This document shows positions 155-56,560 of a DNA stretch of 64,000 bases, one piece after another. The translations under genes and the position numbers were made by a program. This DNA is from Ceratodon purpureus (Eukaryota > Streptophyta > Bryopsida > Pseudoditrichales > Ditrichaceae). Under the pieces are notes generated by a model. That model did not search any database, was not told the origin of the DNA, and was given only the letters and a program-made list of their open reading frames with translations. The stretch is from positions 13,600,430 to 13,664,429 of the forward strand of contig CM026427.1 of the NCBI GenBank assembly GCA_014871385.1, given 5' to 3'. Every line of letters begins with the position of its first letter. Position 1 is the first letter of the stretch.

Positions 155-730
155 ATGCAGAGTGAGGAATTTATCCCTCATTGTGCTTTAAATAGTCACA
201 AATTAGGCCAACTGCTGGCAATAGTATAGTTGGCCCAACTATACAAGATTAATTTAATTGACAACAATAATTTTGTGTAATTGATTAACACTTTTACAAG
301 TACATGACTCATTGTTTAGACTTATGGAAAGGCTTAGTTTATTTAGTACAATAAATAATTGAGAAACCGTCATTTAAAAAGTTATTAAGAGTTGCATACT
401 TCAATATTCTAAGGGACTAATGAAAAAATCATTTAGCATTTAATAAGTATATAATAAATTAAATATAATTTGAAGGATCAATAATTATGTGGTAAAATAA
501 AAGATCATCAAATTGGAGATGCTTAATTGCTAGGAACATAACTAGTGTGAATAGGGTTAGGGCTCTAATGGAACATCCTAGTGTGAACACACAAATCGTT
601 AGTGGCGGCTGCAGCCGCCCTGTGAGGCGGCTGTAGGGCGGCTGAGCCGCTGGGACCAACAATTGGCCAACTGCTGGCCACAAATTGTGAGTATATAAAC
701 ACAGTGAGGGATTATTCCCTCACTGTGCAT
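155..730. mobile_element. MITE-like element with long imperfect terminal inverted repeats
   Basis: The stretch at about 156-222 is repeated as its reverse complement at about 661-730, roughly 80% identical over 67 bp. Both arms start with a TGCA(G/C)AGTGAGG core and run through a shared TCACAAATT motif. Each arm is itself nearly palindromic around AGTGAGG and CCCTCA. The interior of about 440 bp has no coding capacity and contains a GC-rich palindrome at 604-619. This is the architecture of a non-autonomous DNA transposon. I found no clear target-site duplication, so the exact ends and the superfamily are open. Confidence 0.55.
604..619. repeat. 16-bp perfect GC palindrome
   Basis: GGCGGCTGCAGCCGCC reads the same on both strands. 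It is followed by further GGCGGCTG and GAGCCGC motifs up to about 652. It is a GC island inside very AT-rich DNA and could form a cruciform or hairpin. A related hairpin lies at 40,459-40,480. Confidence 0.6.
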
Positions 731-3700
731 CTTATTTAATAGATGATTGTTTATTATGAGTGTTCACTACCTTATAGTCTAATATTACTGGTTGATTACA
801 AAAAATGCAACAAAATTCAAGAAAAACATATTTACAAAGAAATATAAGACGTAATTTTTAAATGTAGTATCTTAGGATGGATCACCCTTAGATGTCTATT
901 TTTAAGATAGTATTTTTTTGAATTACTGAACTGAATTTCATGATTGAAATATTTATGCTTGGATTCAATTTCAAAGTCCAATACTATTGAAAATTTAATA
1001 TTTTTTAATGCTATATAATTATTGAACCGGTGTAGAAGTGGCTTTACATCCCAAATAGCCCACTTTATCCTTTAAAACAAAACCAAACATAACCTAGTGC
1101 CAAAGGTATGAAGCGTATTGGAGATGATTAAAACTAGTATATAAACCACGTTTGGTAATGACATATAATCATCTGTACTATCGGTCAAGGTCAAATCATG
1201 TACTAACCATAACTCTTTTTTCAATAAATTTTGAAATGCCACTCTTCAAACTAACTACTACCGATATAGACCTTGACGACTATATGATCTTATGTGACAT
1301 GATATGATCTGATATGACATGCAACCAAATACTGAACTCTTGGAAGATTTGTGACCTTCACTCTACAATTTGTGAAGAGTGAATAATGTCAAACAAGTTT
1401 GACAAATCTCTACTTTCATTGGACATAATACAACTCAAATTAACTTTAAATGAGTGATAACAATATGCATGATATTAATTATTTTCTCGTCAAATTGACT
1501 TAAAAGTGATGATGCATACATATGTGAGAATAAAATATTAGAAAACAATTCTTATTTGTAAATTTTGAATAGATTATTATTATTTTTTTATTTATTTTAC
1601 TTTACTATTGACCTTAGTCATTTACAAATGCTAAAAAAAAAGACGTTTTTGCAATCTACATATCAATAATAATGATTTAGAATTGTATAACTCTTGAACC
1701 CTATAACCACCACTTTTATTTTATTATTCAGCAATAAAAGACAAAACATCATTTTTTCTTAGATTCAAATTAAATAATCAATCACGCATCTAAAGTAAAT
1801 AGTTATATACCAAAAATAGATTATAAGCGTTTTCTTTAGAATTTTTTTCAGATAATTGTATTCATTATTTGTATTTGTTTTCGAAGACTTAATAATTCAG
1901 TTGGTGGTCTATGTTAAATTTTTTTTCTTTTACGAATACAATATTCCATATGAAGTAAGATTGGATTTCCAAGGATCCTTTGATAAAAAAATCTTGAATA
2001 AGAAATTGATTTGTAATTTTTGTTTAATTGACACTTAAGAATCTAAGTTCTATTGTTGACTTTACATCAATATTATGTACTACAACCTTTATAGATTAAA
2101 GGTGGAGTTTTTCTTTTTCAAATACTATTTGGAAAAATAGAAATTATAATCTAATTTGTAAGGATCTGTTTTTTAAAGATCATAAAGGTATCATATTGTT
2201 TCTAACTGTTTCAAAATTTTGATTAAATTATTCTTTTAATATCAATTGGTAATTGATCAATTTTCTAAAAAATTACATGTCAAGTTTCTAATGTGCAAGT
2301 TTATGGACAAATTATGGAAAACATCTTATATACTCTACATAGTTCAAAGAATACATTTAAAGATTTTTGAAAAACTATTGATGATTTTTTGATGGACTTT
2401 TCATAGAGTGAAATACATCTTCATGAATATAAAATCAACATCTACTAGAATTTTTGCTCAACACTTAAAATAAAATTTTCCTTAAAGTATAAAATCCACA
2501 TAAGATTAATATTTTTTGGAATAGTTACATTGGATGTTTCTTTTAGTGAGATTAATATTTATCTCATAGTATCATATTTATCTTATAATGTTGTTGAAAA
2601 TTATTTCTTTAAAGAAAGTGCATTCTATAGTTTTTTCATTGATAATTTTTTTGGTATTATTCGATTTCAACATCTACTTAGCTTTTAAGATGTTTATTTC
2701 AACTTATAATAATTCAAATAGACAAATTATCAAGTGTCTTTAATTTCTTAGTTTATTGCCATCTCTTTCTTTGATGTTCAAAGTGACTTTGTTTTGTATA
2801 CATGCATGTTTATTTATTAATTTGTTTCAACTAATTTCTATTATGCATTTCATAAACAATTACTTGTTATGATGGTTGATGGTTAAAAGAGTATTATAAA
2901 AAAAATACTTACTTTAAGCAAACTCTTATTTCATCTTTGTTTTTCCTTCACTTCAAACATTATCAAGATAATAACATATAATATTACTATATGCTAAACA
3001 ACCATCAATTATTTATGACTTTGGAATTTCCATAGATTATAGATTTAGAAAGAAGAATCTACTTAAATATTAAAATGACACCAAATCCAATATTCTATAG
3101 ATATAATCTTGGTAAAAGACTTATTTGTAAGTTATTTAAAAGTCACAGAACAATTTATTTGTTAAAAACTTGTAAGGTCTTATTAACATGCTTTCTACTT
3201 AACTACCAAAAACATATCATTTAATAATATTTTAGTTTTATTTTAAAATTATTTTTTGAAAATTATTTGTACCTTTACATTTTAACATATCAAAGGTTGC
3301 TTTTTGTTATTGGTTTGATTATGATTTTTCAAATGATATTTTTGAATGGAAGGAAAAGAAACACATTGTACGTCAATGTTTTTTGAACAATTATCAAAGT
3401 GATAATTTTAAATTTTAGAACCAAAGAATATTGATATTGTAGTTATTGAATAAAAAAATAAATTAAAATTAAAAAATAGCATTTGAAGGGAGATTTTTTT
3501 TAAAATGTGTAATATGTATTTTTCAATCAATACAATAATACAATTTAATTGATTTTTCTATAATTAACGCGTATTTTACATCCTTGATACCAATTATCTT
3601 TCATTTGATAAGACTCCAAATTAAAGAAATTTTTGCTGTGAATTATAACACTAACTATAGAGGAAGGGGCATATAGTACATTCCTCAAATATGAAAATAA

Positions 3701-4942
3701 TATTCTATAAACATTTTATTGAATACTAATATCTTTGATGAACCTTTTGAATACGTTTAATACAATATGTTATTCGCACTGATTTGGTAAAGAATGTCAA
3801 TTCAACCTACACTATATTGACATTCTTACAATTAGTGTAATTATTTATATATAATATATTAGTTTTATCACAAATTTAATGCAAACAATCTCTATTACTA
3901 CAACTTACACTAAAAATGATAATTATTGAAGTAGCAAGTTTAAACTTGAATTAAATTTTTAATGGGTATTCTATGTTTAAACACCTTTCATTGCACCTAC
4001 CATACCATCTTGATGATTTGGGCAGAAAACCAAATTACATAAAAAATCTAAAAACTAAATTTTTTGAGGGAATTCTATAGAATTGTAGAAGAAAAATTAG
4101 CTTATACAAATAGAGAAGTATGAATTCTAACAAAGAATGAGCAAGGGATAGTAAATAAACAAATAAAAAAAACATTTGCCCATATATACCCAAAATGAAG
4201 AAGGTAATTCATGAATAGCACATATGATTATGCATGCTATGAAGAGATTCACACTCATATGCAATAAATCATCATCGTCTATTTTCTCAGTTTCACATAA
4301 ATGCATTCCTGTTGTACAGTACATCTTCCTATTTTTTCTTACAAACTGCAGGCCCTTCCTACTCATGCATGAAAAGCTCCAGCCATTCAAATATCTTCAG
4401 CAAGATATTTCTTGTAAACATGTACCACCCCCACATGATACATCCCAGGAATACCTCTAACAAAGCTAAATGCCAGTTAATGCATGGACTTTATGCAAGG
4501 CTAGCAGCAACTCAAACCTAGATGTGAGTTTCAGATTTTCAGACTGCAAACACTGGGTCTGGACGAAGAGCCTAACAGCTCTTTCAAAGATTCAATGCCA
4601 ATTTCAACTTCCATCTGCTAACAAATTCACAGCCAAAATCAAAATGATACCAATGCGCCATACTACATGTGTGACTACTATCCTCCAAAGTAATGATATG
4701 TTCAATAACTTACGACTGAAGACCATCAAAAACTCAACAAGACCACTGTAACTTAAGCCTTCCAGGCTTGCTATGGTATGTGATTTACTGCAATGAATGA
4801 CATTCCACTTGTTTAAAGGACAAGCAATCACAGACAATCAGAGACAATTAGAGAGCTTGTACTGTATGATAATTGATATCACAACAACTGGGGGCAGTGG
4901 AGAAATTGATGGTGTACTCACCGGATATGGGTAAAACTAAAC
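731..4942. other. AT-rich intergenic DNA, nothing recognised
   Basis: About 4.2 kb of very AT-rich DNA. Open frames are short (under 95 codons), low in complexity and resemble no family I know. From about 4,200 the base composition becomes more balanced, but still no gene is evident up to the Harbinger element. Confidence 0.6.
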
Positions 4943-50476: not shown

Positions 50477-50485
50477 GAGAACTGG
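50477..50485. repeat. Left 9-bp target-site duplication of the TIR element
   Basis: GAGAACTGG, against GAGAATTGG at 54,614-54,622: eight of nine identical, a C/T difference suggesting some age. Confidence 0.65.
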
Positions 50486-50536
50486 CCCCGTCTCTAAATC
50501 CCCCGGTGGTCTTAATGACCGGGCAGGCCCCAACCC
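50486..50536 (+). repeat. Left 51-bp TIR of the unclassified element
   Basis: Pairs with 54,563-54,613 at 49 of 51 bases. Includes GGTGGTCTTAATGAC and GGCCCCAACCC. Confidence 0.9.
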
Positions 50537-51621
50537 TCCTCCTTCCTTTTCTCCTCCATGTTCCTATTTTTAGTATGCCTGTGGCCTTTTTTTAGTAAAT
50601 ATTATATTTTTAATGGAATCTGGGACCCCAAATTAGTTTAGGGGAACCCACTCAATTATTTCTAGTTAGTTTATGTATTTTTTAATTTTTTTTTTTCATT
50701 AACAAGCAATATATGGGGGGCTTTTTGCCCCCTCCAATGGGAGCCCTCATTAGGGGAAAAATGAGGTCTCCAACGGGCCTTGTAAGGCAGCCCGGATTAG
50801 GTGGGCTGCCTGCCCAAAACCCCCTCTGTGGCTGTCAGCAGGGGTCTGAAACGCTGCCCGAAGCGGACGGACGGGAGTTGCGTGGCCGGGTTTTGCCTCG
50901 TTGGCGAGAGGGCGTGGACGGTGGTTGTTGAGCGCCAAGGAGTGGGATTTATTGCTCGGCGATTAATGAAGTGCCTCGATCTGTTGCCTCGATCCACGGA
51001 TTGTTCGAGTTGTTGCCACAACGGTCTGGGCGCGATGGCGCCACCAGCTCTACGCCGTTCAGCACCAAGAAAACGAAGCGCCCTGTTCTGCTTCAAGCAA
51101 GTCGCTGTTGGCACTGTGGGACGCACAATCGTATGTGATTTGCGAGAAAGATTCCGAGTGGCGATGGAGCCCCAGACCGGAGGAGCAAAATTGAGATTGC
51201 AATTCATTTCTTGGCAGCGTCCGCTGGCAGCGACGGCGGCGAGGGGTTGTTCTCAGTCGGCGACCAAGGTTTCAACGAAGAGATGAAAACTGATGTACTT
51301 GAAGGGAAGGTAAGTTAACCTAATTCGATAAACCTTTGTGGGGTGTTCAGGGGCTACTGGGTTTTTGAGCAATTTGAATTTCGATTTCATTAGCCCTTGC
51401 TGCCACAACGGCATAAGGCAATGTAGGTTTCGTGGTCGATAGCGCTTGTAGATGCCACGCAGGTCTATCGAATTAGGTTCAGAGTATTTGAGGTTGTGAA
51501 TTCAGTTTTTCATTGGGTGTAGGAGGTGTCCGAAGATCAGAACAAGTTCTCTCGAATAACAGCAAATCACCAAGTGTGACCAGGGGAGATTCAATCAAGA
51601 TTACCGACTATAGGGTCCACG
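50537..51621 (+). other. Left interior of the TIR element and possible 5' exons
   Basis: About 200 bp of AT-rich DNA with no counterpart in the right arm is followed by GC-rich DNA. A 161-codon frame at 50,801-51,286 could be a 5' exon or chance; it resembles nothing I know. A GTAAGT donor at about 51,309 would allow a leader intron before the frame at 51,622. Confidence 0.35.
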
Positions 51622-52815
51622 ATGGCAGCAAGGGCTGAACGAAGCAATCAGTACATTCCCCACTTTGCACTGGACACACGCTATGCCCCGGTCATGAGAC
51701 GAGGTTCTACGCAAGTGGAGCTGTGCATGAGGAGCTCGTTTCCAACACGGAGGTTGCGTGGAGACACGAACATTGACTTGTGGATCAATGGAGACATTTA
51801 CCCTGTTGACCCAATGACAGGGAAGCCACCTCCAATCAAGTCGCTAAAAGAGTTCGTTGAATTCATATGTCATGGAGAGCAGGGTCTTCGCGGATATACA
51901 CACAAGCGGCTGGATCATTGTGTACATGGTTCTACACAGGAGGAGACGCGGATCCAGTTGGCACAGTTGAGCGAAGAAGTGCTTCAGCTTAGAGGCGAAG
52001 CTCTGGCCAGCAACTCAAGGGCAGCCCAAGATGTCCAATTGGGGAGAATGCGTTGCCTTGAGTTAGAGAAGAAATGCAGGGATTTGCCAGCTGAATTACA
52101 GGCTGTCCGTGATTGCCATGCCCAAAGGGTGGAGCAATTGGAGCGCCATGTGCGGGGTCTCCAAGAAGACGTTGACCGCTGCCAGCGGAGGGCCAGCTTC
52201 GAGAAGGAGACCCCCATGGGCATGCGAAATAGGAGGAGGGCTCTCAGAGGGATTCACGAGTTAAAACCTGGATCAGGTGGATCAAAAGCAAGAGTGAAGC
52301 TTGTGCGGACAGTGTTGCAACCAGATGTGGTGCAGTTTGTTGTCGAAAGGAACCGAGAGAACCGGAAGTGCTCTCGACTGCGGGGGGATAAAGAGTCCCA
52401 AAATAGGACTGCAGTAGCACTAGCTCGAATTTTGTCACGGCATGAAGGTGTAGCGCTCGCTTCTCAGCCTGCAATGGCACATGTTCAGTCAGATATTGCG
52501 AAAAATGTGCTTAAATCGATTGGTAAGAGTATTGGACCGGACAAAATTCTTGCTGCTTGCGACCACGCAGGGGTTTCCCATCGGGGATATGGTGCTCTCT
52601 ACAAATCTGTGAAGGCTCCCATTGTTGCTCTTAACAAAGGAGTCTCCGGGAGTATTTTGCCGAGCCCCTATCACGTGAAACTGCTTCGGCAGGAGTTAAA
52701 TGCAAACCTGCCACAGTATATTGGCGAATACTGCCATGCTGAAGGTCGACTTACGCTGCCAGCAAGTTCTAAGAAGAACAAGAAGTCCGAGGACATGGTA
52801 AAGAAGTCGTTTTGA
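51622..52815 (+). CDS. Unrecognised 397-codon frame of the TIR element, probable first large exon
   Basis: No family recognised. What can be seen: an N-terminal region of about 110 residues (WINGDIYPVDPMTGKPPPIK) and a strongly predicted coiled coil at about 115-205 (EEVLQLRGEALA, LEKKCRDLPAELQAVRD, VEQLERHVRGLQEDV). A basic stretch follows (RNRRRALRGIH), then a helical domain (about 290-370) ending in PQYIGEYCHAEGRLTLP. It probably splices onto the exons at 52,840-52,893 and 52,995 onward. Candidate donors are after LTLPA (about 52,766) and at GACATG/GTAAAG. It lies inside the TIR element in forward orientation. A DNA-binding or oligomerisation role for transposition is inference. Confidence 0.55.
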   Translation: MAARAERSNQYIPHFALDTRYAPVMRRGSTQVELCMRSSFPTRRLRGDTNIDLWINGDIYPVDPMTGKPPPIKSLKEFVEFICHGEQGLRGYTHKRLDHCVHGSTQEETRIQLAQLSEEVLQLRGEALASNSRAAQDVQLGRMRCLELEKKCRDLPAELQAVRDCHAQRVEQLERHVRGLQEDVDRCQRRASFEKETPMGMRNRRRALRGIHELKPGSGGSKARVKLVRTVLQPDVVQFVVERNRENRKCSRLRGDKESQNRTAVALARILSRHEGVALASQPAMAHVQSDIAKNVLKSIGKSIGPDKILAACDHAGVSHRGYGALYKSVKAPIVALNKGVSGSILPSPYHVKLLRQELNANLPQYIGEYCHAEGRLTLPASSKKNKKSEDMVKKSF

Positions 52816-52839
52816 CTGACAAGAATTCCCTATTCACAG

Positions 52840-53480
52840 ACCTTGAGGTGGTCCAAAGGAGCATGGTGATCTTCTACGGCATCACGGAAGAAGGTAACGT
52901 AATCACCTCAGACTGTTGTTTTCAGAGTTTGCTGCCAGCAGGGTTATTTATCAATTAACCGTGACTTACACATCCACTCGCCATGTTTCCACAGAGTTAA
53001 TAGGGGCACCGCTGGTATTTGTCATGAAATTGGACGAGGCCGAGATTGTCAATGGCAAGAAGTTTGAACGGGTCAGCATCACATTGATGAATAGGGCGCT
53101 CGACCCAGACATTCAGGGAAACCATGCCCTGTTTTTCTCAGTCCAGTCGGAGCAGGAAATCTGGCCACTGGCAACCTTTCAAGTGGAAAAAGAGTCCTAC
53201 GAAGTTCTGTCGTGGATATTTGGGAAATCCAAATTTCCATCTGTGATTGCAGCACAGTCCAGTGGCGAGAAACTCACGGTCCCTGAAGTTGGAGAATTCC
53301 ATGTGGAGTGGCATCTCGCTGCGGACATGAAGACGATCAAGTGTATGTACGGGCTTCAGTCGGGGCCGTCGTGTGCGATGAACTGCATATACTGCGAGCA
53401 GAAGAGGGCTAAGCCTACCGTAGGGACAGCAAGCCAGGCGAGTGCTGCCATCAGAAAACGTGGGAAACCGAACTGGGTGG
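52840..53480 (+). CDS. Possible transposase-core exons of the TIR element
   Basis: Two exons are readable: 52,840-52,893 (DLEVVQRSMVIFYGITEE, donor GTAACG) and 52,995 to about 53,480 (acceptor TTTCCACAG). The phase fits and gives ELIGAPLVFVMKLDEAEIV, VSITLMNRALDPDIQG, FHVEWHLAADMKTIKCMYGL and then a CIYC zinc-like pair. An Asp-x-Lys motif followed by a small-residue loop and CxxC is the sort of pattern seen around a catalytic Asp in several eukaryotic transposase families; I cannot name one. Past about 53,480 the frame continues but loses the character of the protein, so the C-terminal half is probably deleted. Confidence 0.45.
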
Positions 53481-54562
53481 GGGGACAGTTTGCCAACTCT
53501 GTGGAGCCAGAACCATGTGACATGCGTGCACATACAAGGTGGAGGTCGCATGCTCCATGCTCCGTGGAGATCCAAGAGAAATCTCTGATCTGCGCTTTGA
53601 AGGCCCCCCGAAAATTTTCTCCACCATGTCGCCTTGCCTCTCTACCCCAAGGCCCATCCGACGCTGGTTGCAGCATAACCCATGAATCACGATCCACCTT
53701 CATGGGGATCCAGTTGCCCTCCAAGTCTTGAGTATTATGCAGAATGACACTCTGTACGAGGGAGTTTGGCCGTGAAGCCATACCACTAGAATGCATGAAA
53801 TTTTCGACTGTGAACTCAAAAACTTACAAATGGTGTCGTCGCTGTCATCAACCGCCAGAACTACACGCTGTCAACACACCCTCCGCCATCACGAACGGCT
53901 GAAACCTGCGTCCACGGCCTCGCAACCAAGGTACGAACTACCCTAAAACCTCATCCCGAAACCCCAATTCCCAACTCAGGTACTCTCTCCAACCTATGTG
54001 GATGGCAGACCGCTGGCAGCGTTGGAAGACCACTACAGCTAAACCCTAAATCTCTACTGCACAATGCGTGACCACCCACAACCGAAATCGAACAACTTCG
54101 CCCAGCCTTTGGAGGCCTCCACCGCTCCATCCTGCTTGACAACGCAACGACGACAACTCTCTCAGGGGAACGCATGAGGTTCGGAATGACCGTTGACAGC
54201 ATTTCGACATCAACACCTTGTGCACGTTGCATCTCAAAGGGGGAGCCGCAATTCGATTTCAGTAGGTGGCCTGTGGAGTCAGTTTCGCAGGCGTTCATAA
54301 AGCCCACCACCGCTGACACCCTTCTGCAATGCTCGAATTCCGTGCGCGAAGAGGCTCCGTTCTCGACCTGCGGGACTACACGCGCGGGGGAGGGAAGCCT
54401 TCCTGCGCGACTATTGGCCGGACCCCCCCATTCGCGATTTGGCTCGCTTTTGGCGACCTGCTGGCACAGTTGGTGCCAGCAGGTAAAGTGCACGGGCATG
54501 CCCAAAACTTTGGCACGGAAAGCATGGAAAAGGCCCGTTGGAGACCCCAAACTGCTCCTAAT
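53481..54562. other. Right interior of the TIR element
   Basis: No coding sequence I can support; frames occur on both strands and contradict each other. Contains the palindrome at 54,456-54,484. Confidence 0.4.
54456..54484. repeat. Perfect 12-bp-arm palindrome in the TIR element
   Basis: ACCTGCTGGCAC, a 5-nt spacer, then GTGCCAGCAGGT. It lies about 130 bp inside the right end, a position where transposase-binding or hairpin structures occur. Function unknown. Confidence 0.8.
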
Positions 54563-54613
54563 GGGTTGGGGCCCGCCCCGTCATTAAGACCACCGGGGGA
54601 TTTAGAGACGGGG
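54563..54613 (-). repeat. Right 51-bp TIR of the unclassified element
   Basis: Inverted partner of 50,486-50,536 (49 of 51 identical), followed by GAGAATTGG. Confidence 0.9.
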
Positions 54614-54622
54614 GAGAATTGG

Positions 54623-55358
54623 TGGAGAGTCGAGAATGATGCTACCAGAACCAACGTTTAATTCACAAGCAAATTTTCGGCCGGATCTTACCTGGGTCGG
54701 TATTGACTCCGGATACACAAGGGTTTTAAGGGTATAAATTCATTCTTGTCGCCAGATCTGGGTCTCGGGCGGGTGGGGTGGGGCCAGCTCAACTCCTAAG
54801 GAGCCACGTCGGGTGCGACTGAAGCTATGTGTTTCTCCACAAGCTGTGCCATCCCACTCCGGCCCCCCACGACGCTGGTGCCACTTTCTCCTCATCTCTG
54901 TCACAGATCGCCACTACTCTGTCAATCTTAGCTGACTTTAGTCGCCACCATTTCTCCATATATGGGTTTCTCAGAAGCCAATCTTGCAATGTATTTATTT
55001 CGGGGGGGCTAGTTGGAGTGTGTGCGCTTGGTGTTGTGCTCTGTTTGGGTGATCGCCAGTTCCATTGCAGCTCTGTCAGCGTACAATTTGCTTTCGATTT
55101 AGTTTTGGTGTGTGCAGGTTTGTGCAGCGCTGGCGCTAAGATGCATTGCAGTTGCTATTGTCGAGCAATCGGCAATGTACTTAACAGAGGAGAAGCTAAG
55201 TTCTCAACACCCACTTTCGGATTTGCTTCATTGTTTCAATTGTAATGCGCTGCGGTTCAATGTTTGCTGGGTTCTGGGTTTTGTGAAGGTATTGTGTTTT
55301 GGGATTTTAGCGAAAGCTTTGTGGGTATTGTATTTTCGAGGGGGATTTTAGAGTTAGG
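54623..55358. other. Upstream DNA of the hAT-like pseudogene
   Basis: Mixed composition with a GT-rich part from about 55,000. It probably holds the promoter or leader of the next gene. No separate gene is supported. Confidence 0.4.
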
Positions 55359-56560
55359 ATGGCTTTCAAAGTGTCGACTGCCATTCAGGCACCCTTACAT
55401 AGATTTCTCTACGAGGGCCGTTTGAAGGGGTCTGCAGCCGAGGGTTTTGATGGGTCTTTGGATTCTGCTTGCTCTGGGCTTGCTGAGAAACTGTCCACGC
55501 AGGTGAAGCTCGAACAAGAATCCTGGGAGGCGGATGTTGGTGGCGGAGAAGCAGACTGCACGGTGGTCGAGGAGTTGTCCACGCCAGCCAAGCGAATTGC
55601 GGAGTGTGTGGTCGTTGGAGAAGTTACTACAGAAGAGAAGGCAGAATCGAAGAAGAGGAAGAAGAATTACGACTCCAGACGCCATTTCCAAGACTCTTGG
55701 GCGGCAAAGTTACCGTGGGCAGAGGCGGTGGTTGGCTGCGACGGATCCATCACACAGGTGCGCTGCAAGATTTGTTCGGATGTGGAGGCGCGAGAGAAGC
55801 TGTTGGTACCGAAAATTGATAGTCTATACAAACATGCCGGGAGGAGGAAGGCGATGGTGGACATGGGCAAGGTGAGGCGCGGGGAATATTTCTACCTCGG
55901 GACGAATCAGCACGTGAAAAATAAGAGAGTTTTCTTCGCCAAAGGTGGACAAACGGTGATTACTCAAGTGCTGGCGGGTGCGACCAAGGAGCGCCGGAGG
56001 AAGATAGTGCAAATGCGATGCTACCTGCATGTTCTGCAGCAAGGGAGGCCGATGGCAAACTATCACGCTATGGGAGAATTGTTGACGTTGCTCATGGTCT
56101 CGGAATTACCCAAGAAGCACTGGTGTCAGCCTGCGGGGTGGGAGTTTGCTCAGCCCATGTCCAGGGTGTGTGCAGACCGCTTAAAGCGCGGAATTGCTGA
56201 GGCCCCTTTCATTTCTACTTCGGCAGATGAGGTAACTACAGGAGACAACACACAATGGCTTAGTGTCCACGTCTATTACTCCGTCAATTTCATTCGTGAA
56301 TCTCACATGATTTGTATCCGTCGTGTTGACTGCGATGCCAATGCCGAAAAACTGACGGAAATGATTGTGATTCAGCTTCAGTATCATGGGGGCTTGGGGG
56401 ATGACGACCTTGCACAGAAGCTCATTTGCTTCGGGCCGATGGGGCTGCTGCTTTTCAGGGCTCTCGCTCTGGTGTGATCTAGAGGCTCACTGCTCACCAC
56501 GCTCCTTATGTTGTGGGTGTGCATGATTTTGCACATAGAACTAACCTCGTAGTTAGGCAT
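55359..56560 (+). pseudogene. Decayed hAT-like transposase-derived gene, 5' part
   Basis: A 372-codon frame opens with a disordered N-terminus, then a zinc-finger-like segment (SWAAKLPWAEAVVGC, VRCKICSDVEAREKLL, YKHAGRRKAMVDM). The start of an RNase H-like hAT core follows (KKHWCQPAGWEFAQPM, FISTSADEVTTGDNTQWLSVHVY). At about 56,440 (LICFG) a frameshift occurs. The expected continuation is visible in another frame (DGAAAFQGSRSGVI, then VGVHDFAHRTNLVV), interrupted by a stop. No downstream core or dimerisation domain is found, so the gene is truncated. It is distinct from the DUF659 gene at 15.3 kb. The family is recognised from motif order only. Confidence 0.65.

Follow-up and report, generated by a model that had tools for sequence, protein, structure and literature searches.

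Positions 50,486 to 54,613 of a 64,000-nt stretch of the Ceratodon purpureus genome (assembly GCA_014871385.1, contig CM026427.1; the whole stretch is called the window below) hold two transposable elements, one inside the other. An initial annotation, made from the sequence alone, had read these 4,128 bp as one DNA transposon of unassigned superfamily, bounded by 51-bp terminal inverted repeats (TIRs) and a 9-bp target duplication. We find that the outer repeats are a separate miniature inverted-repeat transposable element (MITE) of ~312 bp, not the ends of the coding element, and that the copy nested within this MITE is a defective, internally deleted derivative of a 10.8-kb family, here the CATTAGG family. 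The best explanation overall, which we regard as probable when its parts are taken together, is that the full-length element is a cut-and-paste transposon with the layout of the CMCT transposases, and that its deleted copy lies within an older MITE of the Mutator-like element (MULE) type.

A deletion derivative nested in a MITE

The outer repeats are present as first described (50486-50536 and 54563-54613; 49/51 identical, or 96.1%), as is the 9-bp duplication, which matches at eight positions. They do not, however, bound the interior. Copies were sought in the window's own assembly (362.5 Mb, 151 contigs); for the whole 4,128 bp, its 3' kilobase and its first 262 bases, the best 40 candidates were scored per list. 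For the whole 4,128-bp query, the listed loci other than the window begin at query base 258-265, mostly at 262-263, and most of them stop near query base 3060; the 3' kilobase matches separately, in copies that end at query base 4078-4088, mostly at 4078. Not one of these listed interior copies, the window aside, covers the outer TIRs. The initial annotation had named genome copies with other boundaries as the result that would overturn it, and the listed copies indeed do not end at the 51-bp repeats.

The outer sequence has a distribution of its own. Its first 262 bases alone are 75-85% identical to at least 39 other loci, at least 18 of which also have an inverted right end listed beside them. 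We fetched four copies of this MITE, and in each of them base 262 is joined directly to the inverted right end: all four paralogues read ...CCCT/GGTT... across the position of the nested element (the slash marks the junction), which makes them an exact empty site. The 9-bp duplication is clean in three of the four (9/9, 9/9 and 8/9), and the remaining copy, L073, has an 8/9 duplication only if its left end is shifted by one base. Nine base pairs is the duplication length of MULEs, and the MULE combination of long TIRs and a 9-bp duplication is found in the outer MITE only (51-bp TIRs, 8/9 in the window). The MULE-like duplication of the initial annotation was right as to length, but its assignment to the coding element was not, since it belongs to the host MITE. 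That this MITE is of MULE type and older than the insertion it carries is one part of the joint explanation that we favour.

The nested element has CATTAGG...CCTAATG ends and imperfect 32-bp TIRs (26/32, counted by eye). Among the other copies for which both ends were read, the start is CATTAGG in 25 of 27 and CGTTAGG in 2, and the end is CCTAATG in all 27; among single-ended loci, one starts with CATCAGG and one ends with CCTAACG. A full copy (L013, on contig C12) is 10,817 bp long, and in full copies the partners of query bases 263-3060 and 3057-4078 lie ~7 kb further apart than in the window, where the two parts meet at a short microhomology (see the table).

The family is abundant. The exact 15-base core of its TIR occurs 617 times genome-wide (301 forward, 316 reverse), compared with 0 for a reversed-pattern control, and many of the listed core sites are pairs ~300-400 bp apart. 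Twenty such pairs that we fetched (L078-L097) are MITEs of 338-453 bp, which carry the TIRs and subterminal sequence of the element and hold stretches of its last ~104-156 bp and its first ~47-69 bp. A search with the transposase region returned at least 98 loci, every one with exon 2 of gene A (described below) at an identity of at least 92%; by hand count, this exon has no internal stop in 63 of the 98. With many open copies and derived MITEs the family looks young, and its recent activity is a further part of the joint explanation that we hold to be probable. We also note that GCTGACAACA-type repeats occur in L080 and L086, two of the three CATTAGG MITEs inspected whole. When relatives were sought in viral contigs, two stretches fitted a pattern and neither was confirmed.

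Table 1. Features of the nested pair of elements, in window coordinates.
Feature	Position	Strand	Remarks
Left 9-bp target duplication of outer MITE	50477..50485	.	GAGAACTGG, 8/9 against the right copy
Left part of outer MITE	50486..50747	+	opens with the 51-bp TIR (50486-50536); 39 other listed loci
Nested, internally deleted copy of the 10.8-kb element	50748..54563	+	3,816 bp; ends match 27 other copies with both ends read
Left TIR of nested element	50748..50779	+	CATTAGGGGAAAAATGAGGTCTCCAACGGGCC
Gene A exon 1	51622..52893	+	N-terminal coiled coil; frameshift near 52803 in the window copy
Gene A exon 2, cut off by the deletion	52995..53545	+	proposed first Asp (MKLDEAE), second Asp (ADMKTIK), CxxC
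Junction of ~7-kb internal deletion	53542..53546	.	4-bp microhomology GAGG, 53542-53545
5' remnant of gene C	53546..53796	-	compared with full copies
Right TIR of nested element	54532..54563	-	
Right end of outer MITE	54564..54613	-	51-bp TIR if counted from 54563
Right 9-bp target duplication of outer MITE	54614..54622	.	GAGAATTGG

Just outside these 4,128 bp lies an open reading frame (ORF) of 388 aa (55311-56477), whose N-terminus resembles by eye that of a BED/hAT-type transposase; no Pfam family reaches E 0.1 for it.

Three genes and a putative transposase

Full copies of the element carry three genes, A, B and C. Gene A has three exons, which in silico GT/AG splicing joins into a frame of 963 aa. 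Splicing was possible in 16 of 20 copies, the four without a splice anchor being left out, and 10 of these 16 are open over the whole length. The forward coiled-coil ORF of the initial annotation, with its ATG at 51622, is there, and so is the downstream exon that carries VEWHLAADMKTIKCMYGL and a CxxC pair; the proposal that they are spliced together holds, in silico, in intact genome copies, which have one long open frame. The genes are open and under selection: six comparisons with copy L013, based on few changes, put the ratio of nonsynonymous to synonymous changes (dN/dS) of gene A at 0.16-0.58, and for gene B the ratio is 0.25-0.27 in three members of a second subfamily and 0.30 in one nearer copy. 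Seven copies of gene B were compared with L013, of which L009 and L020 have a stop and L023 was not excisable. Gene B lies on the forward strand and encodes at least 540 aa with a coiled coil and, by eye, a RING-like Cys/His cluster; gene C lies on the opposite strand, where a two-exon model of one full copy predicts a protein of ~430 aa. The proteins of all three genes are without a Pfam family above its cut-off, in line with the description of them as unrecognised.

With a frameshift in exon 1, a truncated exon 2 and no exon 3, the window copy cannot supply a transposase; the HxxxxH motif and the Glu discussed below lie past the deletion and are lost. It is also because of this deletion and frameshift that the initial annotation saw only part of gene A.

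The second subfamily (L009, L010, L015, L022 and L023) is ~99% alike to L013 in gene A, mostly unrelated to it in a ~4.5-5.7-kb region upstream of gene B, and diverged from it by 3-7% in gene B (L023 more so in the 3' part). As judged from these alignments, the subfamily is an apparent case of modular exchange within the element.

The motifs of protein A follow one another in the order MKLDEAE (435), ADMKTIK (534), CIYC (555), VHICTLH (618), MHVIVRH (784) and QGMEKSH (807). This layout, D...D...CxxC...H...HxxxxH...E, is that of the EnSpm/Transib/RAG1 (CMCT) transposases. Specifically, the C(2)C and H(3-4)H motifs that define the clade are found between the second Asp and the last Glu (D535, CIYC 555-558, H785/H790, E810), and the CATTAGG family also has the CA..TG ends of CMCT elements. 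The initial annotation held that the layout fits no plant superfamily it could name; on the motifs and the alignment described here it fits the CMCT clade, and the Asp-x-Lys and CxxC stretch singled out there does resemble part of a DDE transposase.

To compare protein A with mouse RAG1 we used a sequence verified against PDB. The 423-aa catalytic region reaches a local score of 60, compared with 35.4 (standard deviation 5.2) for shuffled sequences, and none of 500 shuffles reaches this score. The alignment places HVIVRH on HKTLAH and QGME on EGNE, and this C-terminal block alone is matched in score by 0 of 2000 shuffles. A separate block places DMK on DEK and CIYC on CTLC. In the numbering of the full-length chain (query 1-358 being residues 649-1006), the Asp and the Glu of RAG1 matched in this way are D708 and E962, its catalytic residues. 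Protein A is thus likely a putative RAG1-like DDE transposase, as suggested by motif order and alignment.

Several observations count against this assignment, or against the wider reading built on it. The block with the second Asp and the CxxC is weak alone, its score being reached by 16 of 2000 shuffles, and both separate blocks were picked after the motifs had been seen. Two positions, the first Asp (D438, in MKLDEAE) and the lone His (H619, in VHICTLH), were placed by eye, and the stretch of RAG1 that was aligned excludes its first Asp. A comparison of protein A with Pfam gave no family above cut-off, phmmer found no transposase in PDB, and hhalign with the two single sequences gave a probability of 1.9% (E 0.025) for the same 34 columns. 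An early stop interrupts gene A in 6 of the 16 spliced copies. Finally, the zero-length duplication described next is at odds with the 2-5 bp published for the CMCT clade.

Insertion without target duplication

The CATTAGG family inserts without a target duplication. We compared the flanks of 47 insertions, i.e., the 27 two-ended copies, the window copy and 19 MITEs (L097 was excluded as it has no clean end). In none of the 47 do the two flanks agree over 4 bp or more; they agree over 3 bp in two (0.95 expected from random pairing) and over 2 bp in seven (3.5 expected).

The same result is obtained from empty sites. As queries we used the joined flanks of the insertions: of the 27 copies 19 were searched whole and three partly, and all 20 MITE flank pairs were used. 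Each search scores the best 40 candidates, and sites without a match are uninformative. For the full insertion C10_83, all 40 listed loci match at 100% over 151 bases spanning the junction, and for the MITE L078, 40 of 41 rows match at 100% over 87 bases. C4_2117 has three empty loci, in which 149-151 bases match the same number, and C2_1219 has three in which 150 match 150; identities across these two sites are 88-93%. The flanks of C2_1219 share AGG by chance, and a true 3-bp duplication would shorten its empty site by three. Together with the host MITE in the window this gives five empty sites at which no base was gained or lost. C1_2634 was excluded, its matches being of unequal length (141 by 144 and similar).

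The insertion sites share one weak preference: with both sides symmetrised, position -3 is an A in 55 of 94 cases; at the other eleven positions A accounts for 17-36 of 94.

We infer that the transposase is protein A, and that strand transfer is blunt. In the mechanism that we propose, protein A would bind the 32-bp TIRs and the subterminal repeats, cut at the CA/TG ends, and join both 3' ends to directly opposite target phosphates, with A preferred three bases outside each end. Joining at opposite phosphates would leave no staggered gap, so that the target would not be duplicated. MITEs of 338-453 bp and deleted copies like that of the window would be moved by this enzyme too.

The element is also marked by a palindrome, GCTGNCAGC, dispersed over its whole length. 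L013 contains 18 copies in its 10,817 bp, where a first-order model predicts 0.39 and 200 simulations give at most 2; the remaining 59.9 kb of the window have none. The sites fall in exons, introns and intergenic stretches. Within the first 8 kb there are 13 in L013 and 12, 11, 12, 11 and 6 in five copies of the second subfamily, at mostly corresponding positions. In a set of 20 loci minus L026, which are related copies and differ in the regions compared, the columns of the palindrome have 28 variant cells in 2169, compared with 490 in 27354 for local flanks and 4871 in 146339 for all other columns. The palindrome columns vary slightly less than their flanks, which is no more than suggestive of conservation. 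The palindrome could be a binding site for assembly of the transpososome or, in the manner of VANC, for escape from silencing.

Combining these elements gives a bolder proposal that is possible but, as a whole, doubtful: a RAG1/CACTA-like DDE transposase that inserts bluntly at a weakly palindromic site may represent a mechanistically distinct branch of CMCT, in a three-gene element marked over its whole length by 18 copies of GCTGNCAGC, which a protein of the element itself would recognise, either during assembly or to evade silencing. If true, a RAG1-related enzyme that makes no duplication would be a natural contrast for how the spacing of strand transfer is set, and solved RAG1 structures give the comparison. 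A young family in an apparently haploid moss would make its mobilisation directly testable. More generally, a MITE with a deletion derivative nested inside it can masquerade as a new superfamily.

Alternative explanations and known systems

One 4.1-kb element of an unassigned superfamily would account for the 51-bp TIRs and the 9-bp duplication that flank all 4,128 bp, but we see practically no chance of it: no listed interior copy reaches these TIRs, and they make up a MITE of their own, whose other copies provide an exact empty site for the nested element. Scarcely more credible is that the CATTAGG family does make target duplications, since lost by erosion of the ends or by recombination between copies. 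Some copies are older and damaged, as this would require; near-identical copies and MITEs, however, alike have no duplication, and the five empty sites consist of the joined flanks with no base missing. If insertion were the work of a recombinase outside the DDE type, which protein B or C might contain, and protein A were an accessory factor, the absent duplication would be explained, zero duplication being typical of other recombinases such as those of Cryptons; proteins B and C have no Pfam match above cut-off. We nonetheless judge it improbable: protein A has the DDE/C2C/H4H/E layout and the similarity to RAG1, long TIRs and MITEs that share them are typical of DDE elements, and apart from the A at -3 the insertion sites have no shared core of the kind that tyrosine recombinases need.

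A different question, which bears on novelty and not on mechanism, is whether the CATTAGG family, or a close relative, already has an entry in Repbase Reports (20:2521) as Lanisha, a superfamily proposed in 2020 by Maumus, McDaniel and Carey. We lean towards thinking that it does. In the available part of PMC12730594, Lanisha is cited as one of the CMCT groups, which combine the C(2)C and H(3-4)H motifs with ends that are mostly CA..TG, and the reference list of PMC8000587 has Maumus and Carey among the authors of the C. purpureus genome preprint; a family this abundant would hardly have been overlooked by the authors of that genome. The likeness is one of clade motifs and of what are apparently the same authors, and was drawn from descriptions. 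On the other side, the available part of PMC12730594 names no host for Lanisha and does not mention Ceratodon or moss, the name could denote another element of this genome, and the 2-5-bp duplications given there for CMCT, Lanisha included, contrast with the absence of any in the CATTAGG family, although that length is reported for the clade as a whole only. Given that authors of the Ceratodon genome put Lanisha forward in 2020, it is doubtful that the family is undescribed, as the initial annotation suggested it might be.

Other groups could be set aside. KDZ elements were rejected on duplication length (8 bp for Zisupton in the available part of PMC12730594), and hAT and P, for neither of which the element proteins have a Pfam match, were dropped once the RAG1 layout had been seen. 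As for EnSpm/CACTA, protein A has no match to Pfam Transposase_21 at E <= 1, although such genes are abundant in the same genome. A side observation concerns these CACTA genes themselves: 150 of 150 scored candidates in this genome are above the Pfam cut-off, compared with none in 14 control genomes.

VANDAL elements with VANC are likewise multigene plant transposons with a short motif enriched in their own sequence (PMC5735166, in the part available); here the motif is palindromic and dispersed, not tandem, it also occurs in exons, and no VANC-like protein was identified among the element's products. Another system to compare is Spy, of the PHIS superfamily, a DDE transposon that makes no duplication and prefers a palindromic AAATTT (PMC4482050, in the part available). 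In the parts of papers available to us, Spy and its PHIS kin are the only eukaryotic DDE elements described as making none. The CATTAGG family shares this absence and prefers A at -3 and T at +3, though only these two positions and not the full AAATTT. Spy, however, belongs to the PIF/Harbinger-ISL2EU group; protein A has no Pfam match to any transposase family and resembles RAG1 in its C2C/H4H layout, and the element has CA..TG ends.

The CMCT clade comprises EnSpm, Mirage, Chapaev, Transib/RAG1, ESTA, Plavaka and Lanisha, and is defined by C(2)C and H(3-4)H motifs between the second Asp and the last Glu; its ends are mostly CA..TG and its target duplications 2-5 bp (PMC12730594, Kojima, 2025, in the part available). 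In the accessible part of the open-licence literature we found no description of a CMCT element with zero-length duplication, of such a nested deletion or of such a dispersed palindrome. The CATTAGG family resembles the clade in its C(2)C and H(4)H motifs, its CA..TG ends and an alignment to RAG1 that scores above shuffles, and differs from the published members in lacking their duplication. Because a 2-5-bp duplication was looked for and is absent, the best joint explanation, which we think is probably correct, is of a family that works like CMCT and yet should not be filed as an ordinary member of it.

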